Shown piece after piece: positions 2,206 through 8,744 of a stretch of DNA of 11,013 nt (its first letter is position 1; each line of letters begins with the position of its first letter). This DNA is from an uncultured Desulfobacterium sp. (GTDB lineage Bacteria > Desulfobacterota > Desulfobacteria > Desulfobacterales > Desulfobacteraceae). The translations under genes and the position numbers were made by a program. The notes beneath the pieces were generated by a model. That model did not search any database. It had not been told where the DNA came from and worked only from the letters and a program-made list of their open reading frames with translations. The stretch spans positions 1 through 11,013 of the forward strand of contig CAKZLA010000007.1 of assembly GCA_937124525.1 (NCBI GenBank), read 5' to 3'.

Positions 2206-4461
2206 ATGAGTATAGAGTTTTATTTCTTTGCCGTGGGCATTCTTTTACTGTTTGCCTCCTTTGACCTTGTGGTGGGCGTCACCAATGATGCTGTTAATTT
2301 TCTAAATTCGGCCATTGGATCCAAAGCAGCGCCTTTTAGAACCATTATGATCATTGCAAGCCTTGGCATCCTTGCGGGAGTGACCTTTTCCGGCGGTATG
2401 ATGGAGGTGGCCAGAAAAGGCATTTTTCACCCCCAGTTTTTTACCATGCCCAACCTCATGACCATTTTTCTGGCGGTGATGTTAACCGATATTTTACTTC
2501 TTGATCTTTTTAACACCCATGGGCTGCCCACCTCCACAACGGTATCCATTGTGTTTGAGCTGTTGGGTGCTGCCGTTGCCGTCTCCCTTATCAAGATCAT
2601 GAGCACCGTGGACAGCACCATGGCCATCTGGGATTACATTAATACAGCCAAGGCCATGATAATTGTCTTTGGTATTTTACTTTCCATTATTGTGGCCTTT
2701 TTTTCAGGTGCCGTGGTTCAGTTTTTTTCCCGGCTTCTCTTTACCTTTGATTATGAACCCCGGTTAAAAAAATATGGTGCTGTGTGGGGCGGGATGGCCA
2801 TGACAGCCATCACCTTTTTTATTTTAATCAAGGGGGCAAAGGGGGCCACCTTTATGACCCCTGGGATGGTTGTGTGGATTAAGGGACACTCTCTGTTAAT
2901 AATGTGCACCATTTTCCTGGGCTCTGCTGCCATCTTCCAGGCGCTGTTAAGGGTTTTTAAAGTAAACATCTTAAAACCCATCATTCTTGTGGGTACCTTT
3001 GCCCTGGCCATGGCTTTTGCTGCCAATGATCTGGTGAATTTCATCGGTGTGCCCCTGGCCGGTTTAAATGCCTATCAAACGGCCGTTGCCTCAACTGATC
3101 CCCTGGGTATAACCATGATGGCGTTGAGTAAAAAAGTGCAATCCCATACCCTTCTTCTGCTCCTGGCAGGCTTTATCATGGTTTTGACCCTCTGGTTTTC
3201 AAAAAAAGCCAAAACAGTAACGGAGACGGAGATCAGTCTGGGACAGCAGGACGAGGGCACCGAACGCTTTGAATCCATTTGGCTTTCCCGGAAAATTGTT
3301 AACATGGTGGATTCATTATTTGGCTCCATCAAAAAAATAATTCCCGGAAGTGTCCAGGATGCCGTGGCCAAACGACTTCTTCCTGCCACAAATTCTGTTT
3401 TGTTAGGCCATAAAGATAAACCCTCCTTTGATTTAATCCGGGCATCGGTGAACCTCATGGTGGCCAGTGCCGTGGTTTCCCTGGCAACCTCTTTTAAGCT
3501 GCCGCTTTCCACCACCTATGTCACCTTTATGGTGGCCATGGGATCTTCTTTTTCCGACCAGGCCTGGGGCAGAGAAAGTGCGGTTTACCGGGTCACCGGG
3601 GTTTTGACGGTGGTTGGGGGCTGGTTCATGACCGCCTTTATCGCCTTTGTTGTCTCCTTTGTTTTTGCCGGGGTTCTTTTTTATTTTCAAATCCTGGGGG
3701 TGATTGGGCTCGTGGGTGTGGCAGGCTTTCTCATCTGGAAAAACCAGGTTAAGCATAAAGACAGGGAAAAGGAAAAGGATGAGATTAATATTTTCACCAT
3801 GGACAAGGTGGATAATTTTCAGGATGCTGTATCCGATACCTTTGACCATCTGGCTTATCTGTTTAAGTCCATCAGAAAATCTCTGGATACAGGGTTTGAC
3901 GCCCTGTTTGAAGACGATCTATATCGATTAAAACTGGAACGAAAGAGGGTGAAGCAGTTCCAGATGTGGACCAATGTCATCATTGCCAATATTTTTAAGG
4001 TCCTTCGATTGCAGCAGCAGGAGGATATAAAAACATCCTATAACTATTACCAGATTATCAGACGTCTTCAAAAGGTGTCCGATACCCACAGGGATATCAT
4101 CATCCGCTCCACCCGCCATGTGAGCAATAGGCATAAGGGCTTGCTCCCGGTGCAGATTGAGGAATTGAAACAGGTCCGGGCCTGTGTGATGAAAATTTTG
4201 ACCATGATGGAAGATAACTTCAACAAAAAGGAACTCGTCCACCATGACACAATCACATCGGAATTTAACAACATGAGACGTCTTATCAATGCCATCAATG
4301 AAAATCAGATTGAGCGAATCAGAGATGACTCTTCAAAAACCCGTTTGAGCATTCTTTTTTATGCCACCGGTGGTAATTGTCTCACAATGATGCGGCAGAA
4401 TGTCCGGCTTCTTGAGATTTTTAATGACTCTTTTTCCCTGGAGGATTCGCCCAAATCATAA
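2206..4461 (+). CDS. PiT-family inorganic phosphate transporter with C-terminal PhoU-like domain
   Basis: This 751-residue inner-membrane protein imports phosphate by the PiT (SLC20) mechanism. The two inverted PiT signatures are clear: GVTNDAVNFLN at 24-34 with GLPTSTTVS at 106-114, and FAANDLVNF at 271-279 with KLPLSTTYVT at 431-440. About ten to twelve hydrophobic segments lie between residues 5 and 330 and between 410 and 512. A soluble linker (about 335-405) splits the second half. Residues about 530-751 are a helical cytoplasmic domain of the PhoU-like (DUF47) kind, with FQDAVSDTFDHLAYLFKSIRKSL at its start. E. coli PitA is about 500 residues, so the extra length is this tail, which probably gates or senses uptake. 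The ribosome site before ATG 2206 is weak (AGGT at about 2193). The Pho-box-like array upstream suggests induction by low phosphate. Confidence 0.93.
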   Translation: MSIEFYFFAVGILLLFASFDLVVGVTNDAVNFLNSAIGSKAAPFRTIMIIASLGILAGVTFSGGMMEVARKGIFHPQFFTMPNLMTIFLAVMLTDILLLDLFNTHGLPTSTTVSIVFELLGAAVAVSLIKIMSTVDSTMAIWDYINTAKAMIIVFGILLSIIVAFFSGAVVQFFSRLLFTFDYEPRLKKYGAVWGGMAMTAITFFILIKGAKGATFMTPGMVVWIKGHSLLIMCTIFLGSAAIFQALLRVFKVNILKPIILVGTFALAMAFAANDLVNFIGVPLAGLNAYQTAVASTDPLGITMMALSKKVQSHTLLLLLAGFIMVLTLWFSKKAKTVTETEISLGQQDEGTERFESIWLSRKIVNMVDSLFGSIKKIIPGSVQDAVAKRLLPATNSVLLGHKDKPSFDLIRASVNLMVASAVVSLATSFKLPLSTTYVTFMVAMGSSFSDQAWGRESAVYRVTGVLTVVGGWFMTAFIAFVVSFVFAGVLFYFQILGVIGLVGVAGFLIWKNQVKHKDREKEKDEINIFTMDKVDNFQDAVSDTFDHLAYLFKSIRKSLDTGFDALFEDDLYRLKLERKRVKQFQMWTNVIIANIFKVLRLQQQEDIKTSYNYYQIIRRLQKVSDTHRDIIIRSTRHVSNRHKGLLPVQIEELKQVRACVMKILTMMEDNFNKKELVHHDTITSEFNNMRRLINAINENQIERIRDDSSKTRLSILFYATGGNCLTMMRQNVRLLEIFNDSFSLEDSPKS

Positions 4462-4552: not shown

Positions 4553-4682
4553 TAAATATTCGGTTTGCTTATGTAAATGTTTGGACAGTGCCCCATATTC
4601 GCCTGTTTGGGGCTGCGTAGCATACTAATGCTATGTGAGCAGACCAAAACAGGTGAAGATGGGGTGCTGACCGAATATTTAC
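4552..4682. mobile_element. 131-base MITE-like hairpin element, IS66-like ends
   Basis: The ends are perfect 13-base inverted repeats: GTAAATATTCGGT (4552-4564) and ACCGAATATTTAC (4670-4682). The near-direct repeats AAATGGAA (4544-4551) and AAATGGAG (4683-4690) abut the element, matching at 7 of 8 bases like a target-site duplication. Almost the whole element folds on itself: 4586-4610 pairs imperfectly with 4644-4669, and the apex is TAGCAT (4618-4623) / ATGCTA (4628-4633) with a 4-base loop. A 21-base stretch (4565-4585) on the left arm is unpaired. It encodes no transposase. Ends beginning GTAA with an 8-base duplication are, as I recall, typical of the IS66 family, so this is probably a non-autonomous derivative. 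Family assignment is inference. Confidence 0.65.
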
Positions 4683-4684
4683 AA

Positions 4685-5851
4685 ATGGAGAAGGCATTGC
4701 AAGGTAACTTTAAAAAGGATTCTGGAAAAGTGGTACCCAGAAAGATTTCCCGGGATATTACCCAGGAGGACCATGATATTTTTTCCAGTGTGGTCTCCTT
4801 TGATCTCAACCCGGAACAGAAAAAAAGGATTGCCTGTCCAGACAGGCAATTTTTACGGCAAACATCTATTCTGGCGGTTCACTGGCATCCGGAATTCATT
4901 CCCATGGATTTGATTTCCCAGCGTATTGACAGGCTCTTTCCCCATCGGAAAAATGAATTAATTATCCCCACCCAGCACAATGAAATCATGGGATATAAGG
5001 GGTTTGCCGGGGTTGAAGTGGATTGTTACGCCAAGGGCTTTAATCAAAAAGTACAGATATTGCTTCATTTCAAGGAAAGCAATGTCCAAAAAGCCCATAC
5101 CTTGAGAAAAATGCTGGAACATACCTTTAAATACCGTTCATCCCAGCTTTTTGATTTTATGGATACCATTGTCCGGCCCCGGCCCCACCGCATTGAAGCC
5201 GCGGCCGGGCAGACCGGGGCGGACTCTGACCTCATTGAGTTTGTGAGGATATATGTCAAAAAGATTGAAACCCTGATTGATCAAAATAGTGCAAGCTTAC
5301 CCCCCCAGGCCATGAAAAATAAGGTGTTGAGAAATTTTTTTGATTATTTGCGTCCCCAATATGGTGACCCCTTTATCGATAGGGTCCAGACCTATCTGAC
5401 CGCAGTGAAAAAAATTGTTAAGGCTGGTTTTTCTTTGAAATATTTTTTTAGAACCTCTGAAATCATTGAAGAGGCCCGATCCCTTAATGCCGGCATTGTG
5501 ATTCCCCACCCGGAGCAGTTCTGGCCGGTACTCCTGGCAGGTTATGATGTGGATGGGGTTGAAGTCTGGAATCCCCAGTCCCATCGTTACACCGATTTCC
5601 TCATATCTGTTATCCAGGATATGAATGCAAAAAATGAAAAGCATCAGCGCAAACTTTTGATATTCATGGGGGATGACACCCATTTTGGAGAAAAAATCAA
5701 AGCTCCGTGCTCCCGGAACGGGGGCAAACCCCAGCGGGAAATCGGGGTCCAGCCATCCTGGGATGATCTGGAAATCGGAAAAAAACTGATCAAGGGGAAC
5801 GTGAGTCGAGAGCGGGTTATCCAGGAGTATAAATATCGTCTTTCGGTATAA
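4685..5851 (+). CDS. PHP-superfamily metal-dependent hydrolase-like protein
   Basis: This 388-residue protein has no signal peptide. The motif order fits the PHP fold, which binds metals through scattered His, Asp and Glu residues: HWHPE (residues 66-70, the HxH motif), GVEVD (about 109-113), IPHPEQF (about 273-279), GVEVWN (about 291-296) and GDDTHFGE (about 329-336). PHP proteins are mostly phosphoesterases, for example histidinol-phosphatase; the substrate here is unknown. The frame is open back to about 4577, but that upstream part is a mobile hairpin element. Without the insertion the frame meets a TGA at 4531-4533, so ATG 4685, inside the target duplication, is the likely original start. 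A GTG at 4664 with AGGTGA at 4651-4656 is an alternative made by the element. The middle region (about 130-250) is helical and less typical of the family. The gene sits between two phosphate genes. Confidence 0.75.
   Translation: MEKALQGNFKKDSGKVVPRKISRDITQEDHDIFSSVVSFDLNPEQKKRIACPDRQFLRQTSILAVHWHPEFIPMDLISQRIDRLFPHRKNELIIPTQHNEIMGYKGFAGVEVDCYAKGFNQKVQILLHFKESNVQKAHTLRKMLEHTFKYRSSQLFDFMDTIVRPRPHRIEAAAGQTGADSDLIEFVRIYVKKIETLIDQNSASLPPQAMKNKVLRNFFDYLRPQYGDPFIDRVQTYLTAVKKIVKAGFSLKYFFRTSEIIEEARSLNAGIVIPHPEQFWPVLLAGYDVDGVEVWNPQSHRYTDFLISVIQDMNAKNEKHQRKLLIFMGDDTHFGEKIKAPCSRNGGKPQREIGVQPSWDDLEIGKKLIKGNVSRERVIQEYKYRLSV
4829..4854 (+). terminator. Terminator-like hairpin inside the PHP-like coding sequence
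   Basis: ATTGCCTGTC (4829-4838) and GACAGGCAAT (4841-4850) are perfect inverted repeats, giving at least an 8-base stem with loop CCAG. They are followed by TTTTT (4850-4854), and seven A residues (4820-4826) precede them. This is the form of an intrinsic terminator in either direction. It lies 144 bases after ATG 4685 and is translated as part of the protein (IACPDRQ region). It could cause attenuation when translation is poor. Confidence 0.5.
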
Positions 5852-5972
5852 CTGCCACGGGCAGACCGTATTGGGAATCTGGCCTGCCCACAACAAATAT
5901 CGAAACTCCAGTTATTACAATCATTGGACGGAGTTTTATATAAAAATACAACACAAAAGGTATTGATGTGTA
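5852..5972 (+). other. 121-base gap with two weak inverted repeats
   Basis: GGGCAG (about 5861-5866) can pair with CTGCCC (about 5884-5889), and AAACTCC (5903-5909) with GGAGTTT (5930-5936), the latter followed by one extra T and TATA. No convincing promoter or terminator was identified. Co-transcription of the flanking genes is possible but not shown. Confidence 0.3.
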
Positions 5973-7637
5973 ATGAAGGCAATCATCGGAAATTTTAAGC
6001 TGCTGGCCATTGAAACAGAGAATCAAATTAAATTGACCCATGGATTGCTTTCCGACTTTAACATTGATGTTCTGGAGAAGATAACGGCCCAGGACGACTA
6101 TATTGATAATCTTAAAACCATTGTTGAAAATGCTTGTTTTTCCGATATTTATAATATGAAAAGATCCCCGGATATGGCCCCCTTGAATCGAATCCGGGCC
6201 CTTCATATTATGTGCGTGAACCTGGAAAGAATTGCCGATTTCTGTGTTAATATTGCCCGCCAGACCCAATATCTCACCAGCAAGGATTTTATCCAGAAAT
6301 ACGATTATCAGTCCATGTTTCTGGAAATTCAAAAAAGTGTCAGCCAGATTACCCGGGTGTTTGACCATGGGGATCTCTCCCAGGCCCTGGATATCTGTCG
6401 TGCTGAGTTTAAGCTCGACGACCTGTGGGAACAGACCTTTAATATTCTTTTAAAGGATCTTAAAAAAGGGGATGAGGTGACCAATCTTGTCACCACTATT
6501 TTTATTTTCCGATATCTGGAGCGCATCGGTGATTCCATTTTAAACATTGGAGAGGCCCTTATTTTTGCCATCATGGGGGATCGCATCAAGATTCGCCAGG
6601 TGGAGGCCCTGGAGAAGACCTTAACAGAGTCCGGATTTAAGGGAAGCCTTGGGGATATTGATTTTGCATCCATCTGGGGATCCCGTTCCGGGTGCCGTAT
6701 CAGCAAGGTAAGTCGGATGAAACCTTCCGGTTTCCAGGCCCAGGGAATTTTCAAGGAAGGTGAAATTCTTAAGATCCAAAAAGAACGGGCCAACATCAAT
6801 CAATGGGAAAAAATTTATCCCGGGCTGGCACCAAAGGTATTTGGATATTATGAAAAATATCGTACGGCTTCCCTTTTGGTGGAGTTTCTTTCAGGATGTA
6901 CCCTGGATCAAGTTTTTTTAACGGAAAACAGGGCCGTCATGGAGAATACCATCTTTGTTTTTGAGCAAACCATGACGGAGATATGGCATAAAACCCTTAT
7001 TCCGACACCTTGTCCCACCGATTATATGGCCCAGCTCATGCAACGCCTTTCCGCCATTTCCCGGGTGCATCCTGAATTTTTAACCTCCATTGAACCCCGG
7101 GGGGAGGGCCCAACACCCATGGATACCCGGGATCTTATTCAAGTCTGCCAGCAGATTGAGAAGGAGCTGCCCGCCCCTTTTAGCGTATTTATTCATGGTG
7201 ATTTTAATACCAATAATATTGTTTACAACCACGATGATCAAAAGATTCGCTACATTGATCTCCATCGATCTCGAAAGGGGGACTATGTCCAGGATGCAGC
7301 AGTGTTTTTAATTTCCAATTTCAGGATGCCGGTGTTTGATGTTGATCTACGGACCCGTTTAACCAAAGTTTCTCACCATTTTTATAATGTGTTTCGTAAC
7401 TTTGCCCTTGAACAGGGGGACATTACCTTTGATGTCAGGCTGTGCCTGTCCCTTGCCAGATCTTTTTTAACCTCCACACGGTTTGAGTTAAATAAAGATT
7501 TTTCCGGGGTGATGTTCCAGAATGCCCGTATTCTTATGCAAAGAGTGATTGCCCATCATGGGCAGCCCTGGGAGTCTTTTGTTTTTCCCAGGGAGATATT
7601 GCATTACGACAATGACTCATGGAGACAGGAATCATGA
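5973..7637 (+). CDS. PhoU domain fused to APH/choline-kinase-type phosphotransferase
   Basis: This 554-residue cytoplasmic protein has two parts. Residues about 1-215 are PhoU-like, with both repeats carrying the metal-binding ExxxD helix motif: LERIADFCVNIARQ (84-97) and LERIGDSILNIGEAL (182-196). PhoU proteins link phosphate transport to signalling. Residues about 240-540 resemble the APH/choline kinase fold: an N-lobe containing SLLVEFLSGCTLDQ (300-313), the catalytic-loop motif HGDFNTNN (408-415), and YIDLHRSRKGD with the presumed Mg-binding Asp429. Both lobes look intact, so kinase activity toward a small molecule is plausible; the substrate is unknown. Fusion of these two domains is uncommon in my knowledge. 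ATG 5973 is the only sensible start, as the nearby ATG 5966 is out of frame and closes quickly; AAAGG at 5956-5960 is rather distant. Its stop overlaps the ATP-grasp start as ATGA, implying translational coupling. Confidence 0.83.
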   Translation: MKAIIGNFKLLAIETENQIKLTHGLLSDFNIDVLEKITAQDDYIDNLKTIVENACFSDIYNMKRSPDMAPLNRIRALHIMCVNLERIADFCVNIARQTQYLTSKDFIQKYDYQSMFLEIQKSVSQITRVFDHGDLSQALDICRAEFKLDDLWEQTFNILLKDLKKGDEVTNLVTTIFIFRYLERIGDSILNIGEALIFAIMGDRIKIRQVEALEKTLTESGFKGSLGDIDFASIWGSRSGCRISKVSRMKPSGFQAQGIFKEGEILKIQKERANINQWEKIYPGLAPKVFGYYEKYRTASLLVEFLSGCTLDQVFLTENRAVMENTIFVFEQTMTEIWHKTLIPTPCPTDYMAQLMQRLSAISRVHPEFLTSIEPRGEGPTPMDTRDLIQVCQQIEKELPAPFSVFIHGDFNTNNIVYNHDDQKIRYIDLHRSRKGDYVQDAAVFLISNFRMPVFDVDLRTRLTKVSHHFYNVFRNFALEQGDITFDVRLCLSLARSFLTSTRFELNKDFSGVMFQNARILMQRVIAHHGQPWESFVFPREILHYDNDSWRQES

Positions 7638-8509
7638 AAATCGGTGTGGTTGGCATCCCCGGGGGCTGGTCTTCGGAACGATTGGCAGATGCCGTTGAAA
7701 AGAGAACGGGGTTTCGTATTATCATTGATTTTGAAAAGCTCTCCCTTGACCTTGATACTGGAAAGGTCTGGTATGAAAGCCTTGATATCTCCAGCCTGGA
7801 TGCCCTGATAGTGAAAAAAGTGGGGGCACAATACTCCCCGGCCCTGCTGGATCGCCTTGAAATTTTACGGTTTTTGCAGGGCACAGGGATGGCAATTTTT
7901 TCAGACCCCCATCGTATAATGGGGGTTTTGAATCGCCTCTCCTGCACCATTACCCTTAGAAATGGTAAAATCCCCATGCCCCCCACCACCATTACAGAAA
8001 ACATTGATCTGGGCCTAAAGGCTGTGGAGACTTACAAAGAGGCTGTTTTTAAACCCATGTTCTCCTCCAAGGCCAGGGGGATGGCAGTGATCACCAAGGA
8101 TGGTGACATCCGGAAAAAAGTTGAAACTTTTGCCGGAAAACACGGCATGATGTATATCCAGAAAAAAATTGATTTTGGACGACAGGATCTGGGAATTGCC
8201 TTTCTGGGGGGGAAATATCTCACCACCTATGCCAGGTGCGGCCAGGGTGATTCGTGGAATACCACCATTCGTTCCGGTGGAAAATACAAACCCTTTGATC
8301 CGTCACCGGAAATCATTGCCCTGGCACAAAAAGCCCAGTCATTGTTTGGCCTTGATTTCACCTGTGTGGATGTGGCCCAAACCCCTGATGGACCTGTTGT
8401 GTTTGAGGTCTCCGCCTTTGGTGGATTCCGGGGAATTCATAGGGCCAGGGGAATGGATGCTGCTGACCTTTATGTGGCATATGTCTTGGACCAGCTCAAA
8501 AAAAGATGA
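7634..8509 (+). CDS. RimK-like ATP-grasp enzyme (possible GAK-system type)
   Basis: This 291-residue protein has the ATP-grasp pattern: AVFKPMFSSKARGM (137-150, ATP-binding Lys and glycine-rich loop), YIQKKIDFGRQDLGIAFLGG (174-193), TIRSGGKYKP (211-220) and VVFEVSAFGGFRG (255-267, metal site). Such enzymes make an acyl-phosphate and join it to an amine or thiol, as in RimK glutamylation. In RimK relatives the last metal site is usually E-x-N; here it is E258-V-S260, so the Asn is replaced by Ser. The start ATG 7634 overlaps the previous stop (ATGA) and has GGAG at 7621-7624; an in-frame ATG at 7619 lies before that site. From memory, ATP-grasp proteins of this size occur in the TIGRFAM-defined GAK system, but its other partners are not in view. 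The substrate is unknown, and coupling to the PhoU-kinase suggests a joint role. Confidence 0.78.
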   Translation: MKIGVVGIPGGWSSERLADAVEKRTGFRIIIDFEKLSLDLDTGKVWYESLDISSLDALIVKKVGAQYSPALLDRLEILRFLQGTGMAIFSDPHRIMGVLNRLSCTITLRNGKIPMPPTTITENIDLGLKAVETYKEAVFKPMFSSKARGMAVITKDGDIRKKVETFAGKHGMMYIQKKIDFGRQDLGIAFLGGKYLTTYARCGQGDSWNTTIRSGGKYKPFDPSPEIIALAQKAQSLFGLDFTCVDVAQTPDGPVVFEVSAFGGFRGIHRARGMDAADLYVAYVLDQLKKR

Positions 8510-8532: not shown

Positions 8533-8744
8533 ACTGGTTGACACTTTCTCAAAATATTCCGGCATCCTTCATCCACTGGTTGACACTTTTTCAAAGCATT
8601 CCCTTATTTTTGGGGAATCTCCTCAGAAAAGTGTCAACTACTTTTGAGGTAATTTGAGGGATGCCAATATTCCCTTAGATTCTGGGAATCTCATTAAAAA
8701 AGTGTCAGCTCTTTTTCAGGGAATATGAAAGATGCCAATTTTTT
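8533..8744. repeat. Cluster of four related repeats, two per orientation
   Basis: The core AAAGTGTCAAC occurs four times. Two copies are on the minus strand, read on plus as CTGGTTGACACTTT at 8534-8547 and 8576-8589, 42 bases apart. Two are on the plus strand at about 8627-8638 and 8696-8708 (the last with GTGTCAGC), 71 bases apart. The two plus copies belong to a longer direct repeat (about 8612-8673 and 8683-8744) that shares GGGAATCTC, the core and GATGCCAAT. The minus copies also carry a GGATGCC or GGATACC box after the core. This inward-facing pair layout resembles the multiple terminal repeats of IS21-family elements with the inside lost, but it could equally be a REP/MITE cluster or an operator array. 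No transposase is encoded. Confidence 0.6.
8579..8638 (+). terminator. Long hairpin after the ATP-grasp gene
   Basis: GTTGACACTTTT (8579-8590) pairs perfectly with AAAAGTGTCAAC (8627-8638), and within it ATTCCC (8598-8603) pairs with GGGAAT (8613-8618). It forms from the two inner repeat copies, about 70 bases after the ATP-grasp stop. The T-run after it is poor (TACTTTTGAGG), so it may act as an inefficient terminator or RNA-stabilising structure. Confidence 0.4.

Follow-up and report, generated by a model that had tools for sequence, protein, structure and literature searches.

The window analysed here is a stretch of 11,013 nucleotides (nt) from an uncultured Desulfobacterium sp. (contig CAKZLA010000007.1). 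It encodes a protein in which a PhoU domain is fused to a kinase of the APH/EcKL type (hereafter PhoU-kinase), an ATP-grasp ligase of the GAK system type whose gene overlaps that of the fusion, and, upstream of both, a protein resembling PHP-type phosphoesterases. An earlier note, made from the letters of the window, had singled out the first two as a possible undescribed phosphate-responsive modification system. We are highly confident of the anatomy given below and of the reading that the PHP-like protein, the PhoU-kinase and the ligase make up the core of the GAK cassette, a constant core that differs from the trio implied by the GAK name. The features concerned are:

4664..5851, + strand: PHP-type phosphoesterase-like protein, 395 amino acids from the start in public record P0121; the open reading frame can be opened from 4577
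5852..5972, + strand: gap of 121 nt where relatives usually have an amphi-Trp gene
5973..7637, + strand: PhoU-kinase fusion, 554 amino acids, with the PhoU domain at residues 1-213 and the APH/EcKL-type kinase at about residues 256-545
7634..7637, + strand: ATGA start/stop overlap of the PhoU-kinase and ligase genes, read directly from the sequence
7634..8509, + strand: ATP-grasp ligase, GAK system type; its open reading frame opens at 7619 (7619-8509, 296 amino acids)

A PhoU domain fused to a kinase

The N-terminal half of the fusion matches PF01895 in two stretches (81.3 bits), and its C-terminal half matches both EcKL (PF02958, 34.1 bits) and APH (PF01636, 31.4 bits), each above the Pfam cutoff. 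Searching for homologues yielded 1509 proteins (E <= 0.001); the top 120 of these, the window protein among them, were aligned. Throughout these best 120 of 1509, the PhoU E/DxxxD motifs (D41-D45, E85-D89, E145-D149, E183-D187) and the kinase positions K261, E271, D410, N412, N414, N415 and D429 are identical, and H408 is kept in 119. The protein therefore carries the two PhoU repeats and E/DxxxD metal motifs of the PhoU domain together with a Lys/Glu pair, an HGDxxxxN loop and a second Asp, which we take to be the defining features of the APH/EcKL kinase superfamily, and the earlier note was right to see intact PhoU motifs and an intact kinase core in one protein. Fold comparison places the PhoU half close to PhoU, while structural alignments of the kinase half show about 10-16% identity to the methylthioribose kinase / maltokinase / APH family.

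The fusion falls short of the more specific models for either half. Against the phoU_full equivalog of NCBIfam (TIGR02135) it reaches 86.8 bits (cutoff 130.25), and against the aminoglycoside APH(3') model NF033068 (APH_3p) 31.4 bits (cutoff 205); on the latter scores we reject its identity as a drug-inactivating APH. A canonical PhoU above cutoff is encoded by a separate gene in all 20 of the cassette-related genomes searched, so the PhoU-kinase is an extra, specialised PhoU copy, distinct from the housekeeping PhoU. To judge from source names, the fusion probably extends beyond a single phylum, because the 116 proteins returned with a divergent PhoU-kinase as query include some named for Candidatus Adiutrix, Desulfolutivibrio, candidate division GN15 and Phycisphaerae.

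The ATP-grasp ligase and the PHP-like protein

The downstream ligase matches TIGR04356 (GAK system ATP-grasp, NCBIfam) over the whole profile (1-287 of 287) with 446.6 bits against a cutoff of 300, which turns a resemblance pointed out in the earlier note into an assignment. The RimK domain is recognizable as well (PF08443, 39.1 bits, cutoff 21), but the RimK family model TIGR00768 gives 93.1 bits, below its cutoff of 143.4. MptN (NF040720) is the second-best model after TIGR04356, with 146.8 bits and again below cutoff (350), and the CofF model matches weakly (20.2 bits). The ATGA overlap with the preceding gene lies where that note had seen it, and the inner ATG at 7634 is most likely the ligase start, since it belongs to this overlap and the TIGR04356 match begins at residue 7. 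An EVS motif common to all 17 aligned ligase members replaces the EVN of the aligned RimK-type enzyme, which is a clue only. Loss of catalytic residues, which the earlier note had named as a possible objection, was looked for: the kinase positions are kept in 119-120 of 120 aligned proteins, and ligase residues K145, D251 and E263 in 17 of 17.

The PHP-like protein matches no Pfam or NCBIfam family above cutoff, and its family finds nothing in the PDB by sequence at E <= 10. The product of 4664-5851 does show the PHP fold, so that the PHP-like character suggested for this gene is upheld, a placement made by fold comparison only. In an alignment of 120 members, H, H, H, E, H, H, D and H positions are conserved, putative ligands of a trinuclear metal site. 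Position 80, which we take to be the site of the early Asp metal ligand of the RNase AM / 2yb1 type, is Pro or Ser in 118 of the 120 (Pro in 113).

Distribution and gene order

We surveyed 247 genomes from the phylum of Desulfocicer (G001), annotating cassette loci by tblastn with known members. Above cutoff, the ligase was found in 16 genomes (17 with a fragment). The PhoU-kinase occurred in 18 (E <= 1e-60), the PHP-like gene in 17 (E <= 1e-20), HprK-like kinase B in 15, the CofD-like GAK protein in 19 (18 above cutoff) and amphi-Trp in 48 (E <= 1e-5; 45 above cutoff). No genome has the ligase without the PhoU-kinase: 16 have both, two the PhoU-kinase only and 229 neither. PhoU-kinase and PHP genes likewise occur together in 16 genomes, with the former alone in two and the latter alone in one. 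The 16 ligase genomes comprise 16 with PhoU-kinase, 14 with PHP, 14 with HprK-like kinase B, 15 with amphi-Trp and 12 with CofD-like genes. Fisher p-values for these co-occurrences ignore relatedness and serve only to rank the pairs.

Gene order is conserved as well. Ligase and PhoU-kinase genes adjoin and are co-directional in 14 of the 16 genomes, with 21-67 nt between the extents of their hidden Markov model matches, and in 10 of the 18 PhoU-kinase genomes a single contig carries the order PHP, amphi-Trp, PhoU-kinase, ligase, HprK-like kinase B, CofD-like. An amphi-Trp match lies in the gap between PHP and PhoU-kinase genes at 14 of the 15 phylum loci that have both on one contig (the exception, L040, is Desulfocicer) and at six of seven loci in the family of Desulfocicer (exception L060). 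Co-occurrence and gene order together reject chance adjacency of the PhoU-kinase and the ligase. Of the two genomes in which these genes do not adjoin, G043 has them on separate contigs and holds either two PhoU-kinase copies or a split assembly, because the ligase contig starts with the end of a PhoU-kinase gene. G043 and G194 are also the two ligase genomes in which no PHP gene was found, an absence that is uninformative since their PhoU-kinase genes sit on short contigs (3.4 and 3.1 kb).

Several observations weigh against a constant and closely linked core. G214 looks like a real exception to adjacency, with ligase and PhoU-kinase on different contigs, each followed by HprK-like kinase B. 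The ligase is missing from G220 and G242, which have both PhoU-kinase and PHP, and the PhoU-kinase is missing from G219, which has PHP and amphi-Trp. Seven genomes (G077, G110, G139, G162, G166, G191, G236) contain the CofD-like GAK protein and have neither ligase nor PhoU-kinase. In G047 (L045) the PHP, PhoU-kinase and CofD-like matches contain in-frame stops, reflecting either decay or assembly error, the ligase and HprK-like kinase B being open; these genes were counted as present, and the CofD-like match, which is under cutoff, was kept among the 19. Some counts also depend on contig ends: the ligase of G079, a fragment that runs off its contig and scores below cutoff, was left out of the 16, while the PhoU-kinase of G194, cut by a contig end, was kept among the 18.

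The PhoU-kinases of G220 (L057) and G242 (L058; annotated from Candidatus Adiutrix) are divergent and lie beside amphi-Trp, with PHP present in the genome and no ligase, HprK-like kinase B or CofD-like gene. At the G079 locus (L056), the ligase fragment and the HprK-like kinase B match share one open frame of 545 amino acids, a possible fusion or an assembly error.

Full, intermediate and minimal cassettes

In the window and in Desulfocicer the cassette consists of PHP, PhoU-kinase and ligase only. Within the window, tblastn with one relative's HprK-like kinase B, amphi-Trp and CofD-like proteins gave best E-values of 0.17, 1.3 and 0.32, and none of the three GAK partners (HprK-related kinase B, TIGR04355; amphi-Trp, TIGR04354; CofD-like, TIGR04357) was found in its 11,013 nt, which agrees with the earlier statement that the GAK kinase and amphi-Trp lie outside it. 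Nor does the Desulfocicer genome contain any of the three at E <= 1e-5. G119 and G324 are intermediate, having amphi-Trp and the three core genes but no HprK-like kinase B or CofD-like gene in the genome.

Within the family of Desulfocicer, seven of 86 genomes have the PhoU-kinase. In five of the six besides Desulfocicer itself the ligase follows downstream on the same strand, and in the sixth (G253) the contig ends inside the PhoU-kinase gene. One of these genomes, G249 (apparently Desulfamplus magnetovallimortis), has two cassettes, of which L059 is full and L060 minimal. In a PhoU-kinase tree of 23 rows, which omits the sequences of G047 (with its stops), G194 and G253 (both truncated) and the fragment from L042, the two G249 copies are sisters (support 99/96) and the window groups with Desulfocicer (100/100). 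This topology is consistent with the minimal form having arisen by separate reductions. Between the window and Desulfocicer, ratios of nonsynonymous to synonymous substitution rates obtained by a simple counting method are 0.13 for PHP, 0.13 for PhoU-kinase and 0.20 for the ligase; all three genes are under purifying selection.

The proposed phosphate link and neighbouring genes

Upstream of the cassette lies a gene that bears on the proposed link to phosphate:

2206..4461, + strand: PiT/PHO4 phosphate transporter (PF01384, 90.1 bits), a lineage-specific neighbour and not a core gene

The PHO4 gene stands beside the cassette only in the window and in Desulfocicer (L040). No PHO4 match at E <= 1e-10 was found near the cassette in the other 19 genomes searched, and there was none at the family loci, so that we reject the transporter as part of the system on the ground of its lineage-specific occurrence. 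The conserved neighbourhood envisaged in the earlier note thus holds for PHP, PhoU-kinase and ligase, and does not extend to PiT. Given the intact PhoU domain and, in one lineage, the PiT neighbour, we lean slightly towards the view that phosphate gates the kinase through the PhoU domain. A search for Pho boxes showed no excess over chance: the window holds three matches with at most three mismatches where 1.16 are expected, a number reached in 25 of 200 shuffles, and all three are on the - strand, with none in the gap before the PHP gene.

The transporter itself has a long C-terminal tail (about residues 520-751) with no Pfam family above cutoff. Further upstream, MlaD and MlaC lipid-transport genes (740-1863) are shared with Desulfocicer and had no match in the other loci searched. 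Between the ligase and a histidine kinase gene, the interval 8533-8739 contains a pair of direct repeats of 71 nt each (79% alike), a second repeat pair of 28 nt, and inverted arms flanking a short GTTGACAC-type motif; it is possibly a small repeat element. An Rfam scan of the window, this interval included, gave no family at gathering cutoffs. Counts from a sigma-70 promoter and terminator scan of the window were near shuffle means and were not used.

Possible function of the cassette

Some loci carry additional genes. At L063, a NUDIX gene of 307 amino acids (11049-11972; PF00293, 27.2 bits, cutoff 21.1) is inserted between PhoU-kinase and ligase genes, its ends overlapping both (11049/11052, 11969/11972); a 67% homologue occupies the same position in L064, and a C-terminal remnant of 41 residues is present in L062. 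At L042 the ligase, HprK-like kinase B and amphi-Trp are followed by a phosphohexomutase-like gene, which scores below cutoff with every model that it matched; a related gene occupies the same setting in L056. The PHP, CofD-like and NUDIX families mostly act on small molecules or nucleotides. As partners, all three point to phosphorylated small molecules, and NUDIX and CofD-like proteins to phosphoanhydride or nucleotide-like ones, although these are clues only. We consider it likely that the substrate is a small molecule rather than a protein.

In the mechanism that we propose, the kinase domain would phosphorylate a small hydroxylated molecule, and the fused PhoU domain would gate this step by reading phosphate status via its own metal sites or via the Pst/PhoR machinery. 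The ligase would form an amide on a carboxylate of the substrate, probably adding glutamate, the amino acid added by MptN and RimK. The PHP enzyme would remove phosphate or cut a phosphodiester, so that the amount of a single phosphorylated metabolite could be governed by kinase and PHP phosphatase together. Full cassettes would include optional further steps, contributed by HprK-like kinase B, the CofD-like protein and amphi-Trp. The whole chain, from PhoU-gated small-molecule kinase to PHP phosphatase and amino-acid ligase, is put forward tentatively. More doubtful is its broadest form: a widespread, undescribed phosphate-status pathway of sulfate reducers and their kin, in which PhoU would directly switch the attached kinase and, with PHP and the ligase, control how much there is of a new phosphorylated and amino-acylated metabolite, which might be a signal, a store or a cofactor. 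The HprK-like, CofD-like and amphi-Trp proteins would be optional in it.

The same genes could instead serve protein modification, with the PhoU-kinase (and, in cassettes that have it, HprK-like kinase B) phosphorylating a protein, perhaps amphi-Trp, the ligase adding glutamates to a protein and PHP acting as eraser. In its favour are the modification of ribosomal protein S6 by RimK, a match between the kinase half and LxmK from a dehydratase complex of lanthipeptide type, and the position of amphi-Trp inside the operon at nearly all phylum loci where this could be read. We nonetheless think this unlikely: the absence of amphi-Trp from the window and from Desulfocicer makes it an improbable required substrate, the C-terminal tails of five amphi-Trp proteins share no motif by eye, and the partner families are mostly those of small-molecule or nucleotide chemistry. 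In an F420-like cofactor pathway, CofD-like phospho-transfer and an MptN/CofF-like ligase would together yield a glutamylated cofactor with a phosphodiester linkage, which the minimal cassette would salvage or make in a simpler version. Such a pathway would explain the CofD-like protein downstream in full cassettes and the ranking of MptN, with CofF as a weak match, after the ligase's own family. Its chances seem small, since the CofD-like gene is missing from six of the 18 PhoU-kinase genomes (among them the window's nearest relative and, with broken contigs, G043) and occurs without the ligase in seven, and no deazaflavin or pterin enzyme was found by Pfam among the eight window proteins scanned.

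Two further readings concern the fusion itself. It might be a regulatory PhoU paralogue whose kinase half merely binds nucleotide and which tunes phosphate uptake as PhoU does; its PhoU half is indeed intact, with a fold close to PhoU, and the PiT gene is adjacent in the window. Invariant or nearly invariant catalytic positions in the kinase half, constant partners that are enzymes rather than transporters, and the sub-cutoff phoU_full score make this quite improbable. That the protein is a drug-inactivating phosphotransferase with chance neighbours, as its APH fold and HGDFNTNN motif might suggest, we regard as very improbable indeed in view of the APH_3p score, the operon-linked distribution and the PhoU motifs kept in every one of the 120 aligned homologues. 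Among these readings we prefer the PhoU-gated small-molecule pathway.

How far is the system undescribed? The ligase, HprK-like kinase B, the CofD-like protein and amphi-Trp all have names in NCBIfam, and to that extent the earlier claim of an undescribed system does not stand; what seems undescribed is the role of PhoU-kinase and PHP as core parts and the minimal form without the other three. The titles and abstract openings covered by our literature search held no mention of either, and the search terms 'GAK system', its four model accessions, 'amphi-Trp' and 'HprK-related' were not found. We know of no earlier case of PhoU as the built-in regulator of an enzyme, and this would be the first if true. 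A kinase-embedded PhoU domain could reveal what PhoU senses. The orphan GAK ligase is now tied to a phosphate-signalling domain, making what GAK makes directly testable, and the three-gene version narrows the GAK problem to three proteins amenable to expression and assay.

Comparison with known systems

Unlike PhoU (4q25, 2i0m, 1t72), the window protein carries a fused kinase and falls below the phoU_full cutoff; unlike the methylthioribose kinase / maltokinase / APH family, its kinase is joined to PhoU. The PHP-like protein differs from PHP phosphoesterases of the RNase AM / 2yb1 type in having no sequence-level match (Pfam cutoff; PDB at E <= 10), and the early Asp ligand of that type has no counterpart in 118 of 120 aligned proteins. 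For the ligase, MptN, a tetrahydromethanopterin:alpha-L-glutamate ligase, is by score alone the best named relative outside its own family, at a score far under the MptN cutoff. The closest comparison is with the GAK system (TIGR04356, TIGR04355, TIGR04354, TIGR04357); in 10 of the 18 PhoU-kinase genomes a single contig holds all four of its members, always in the same order. The window shares with it a ligase above the TIGR04356 cutoff; it lacks amphi-Trp, HprK-like kinase B and the CofD-like protein, and has in their stead PHP and PhoU-kinase, for which no dedicated NCBIfam model scores above cutoff.
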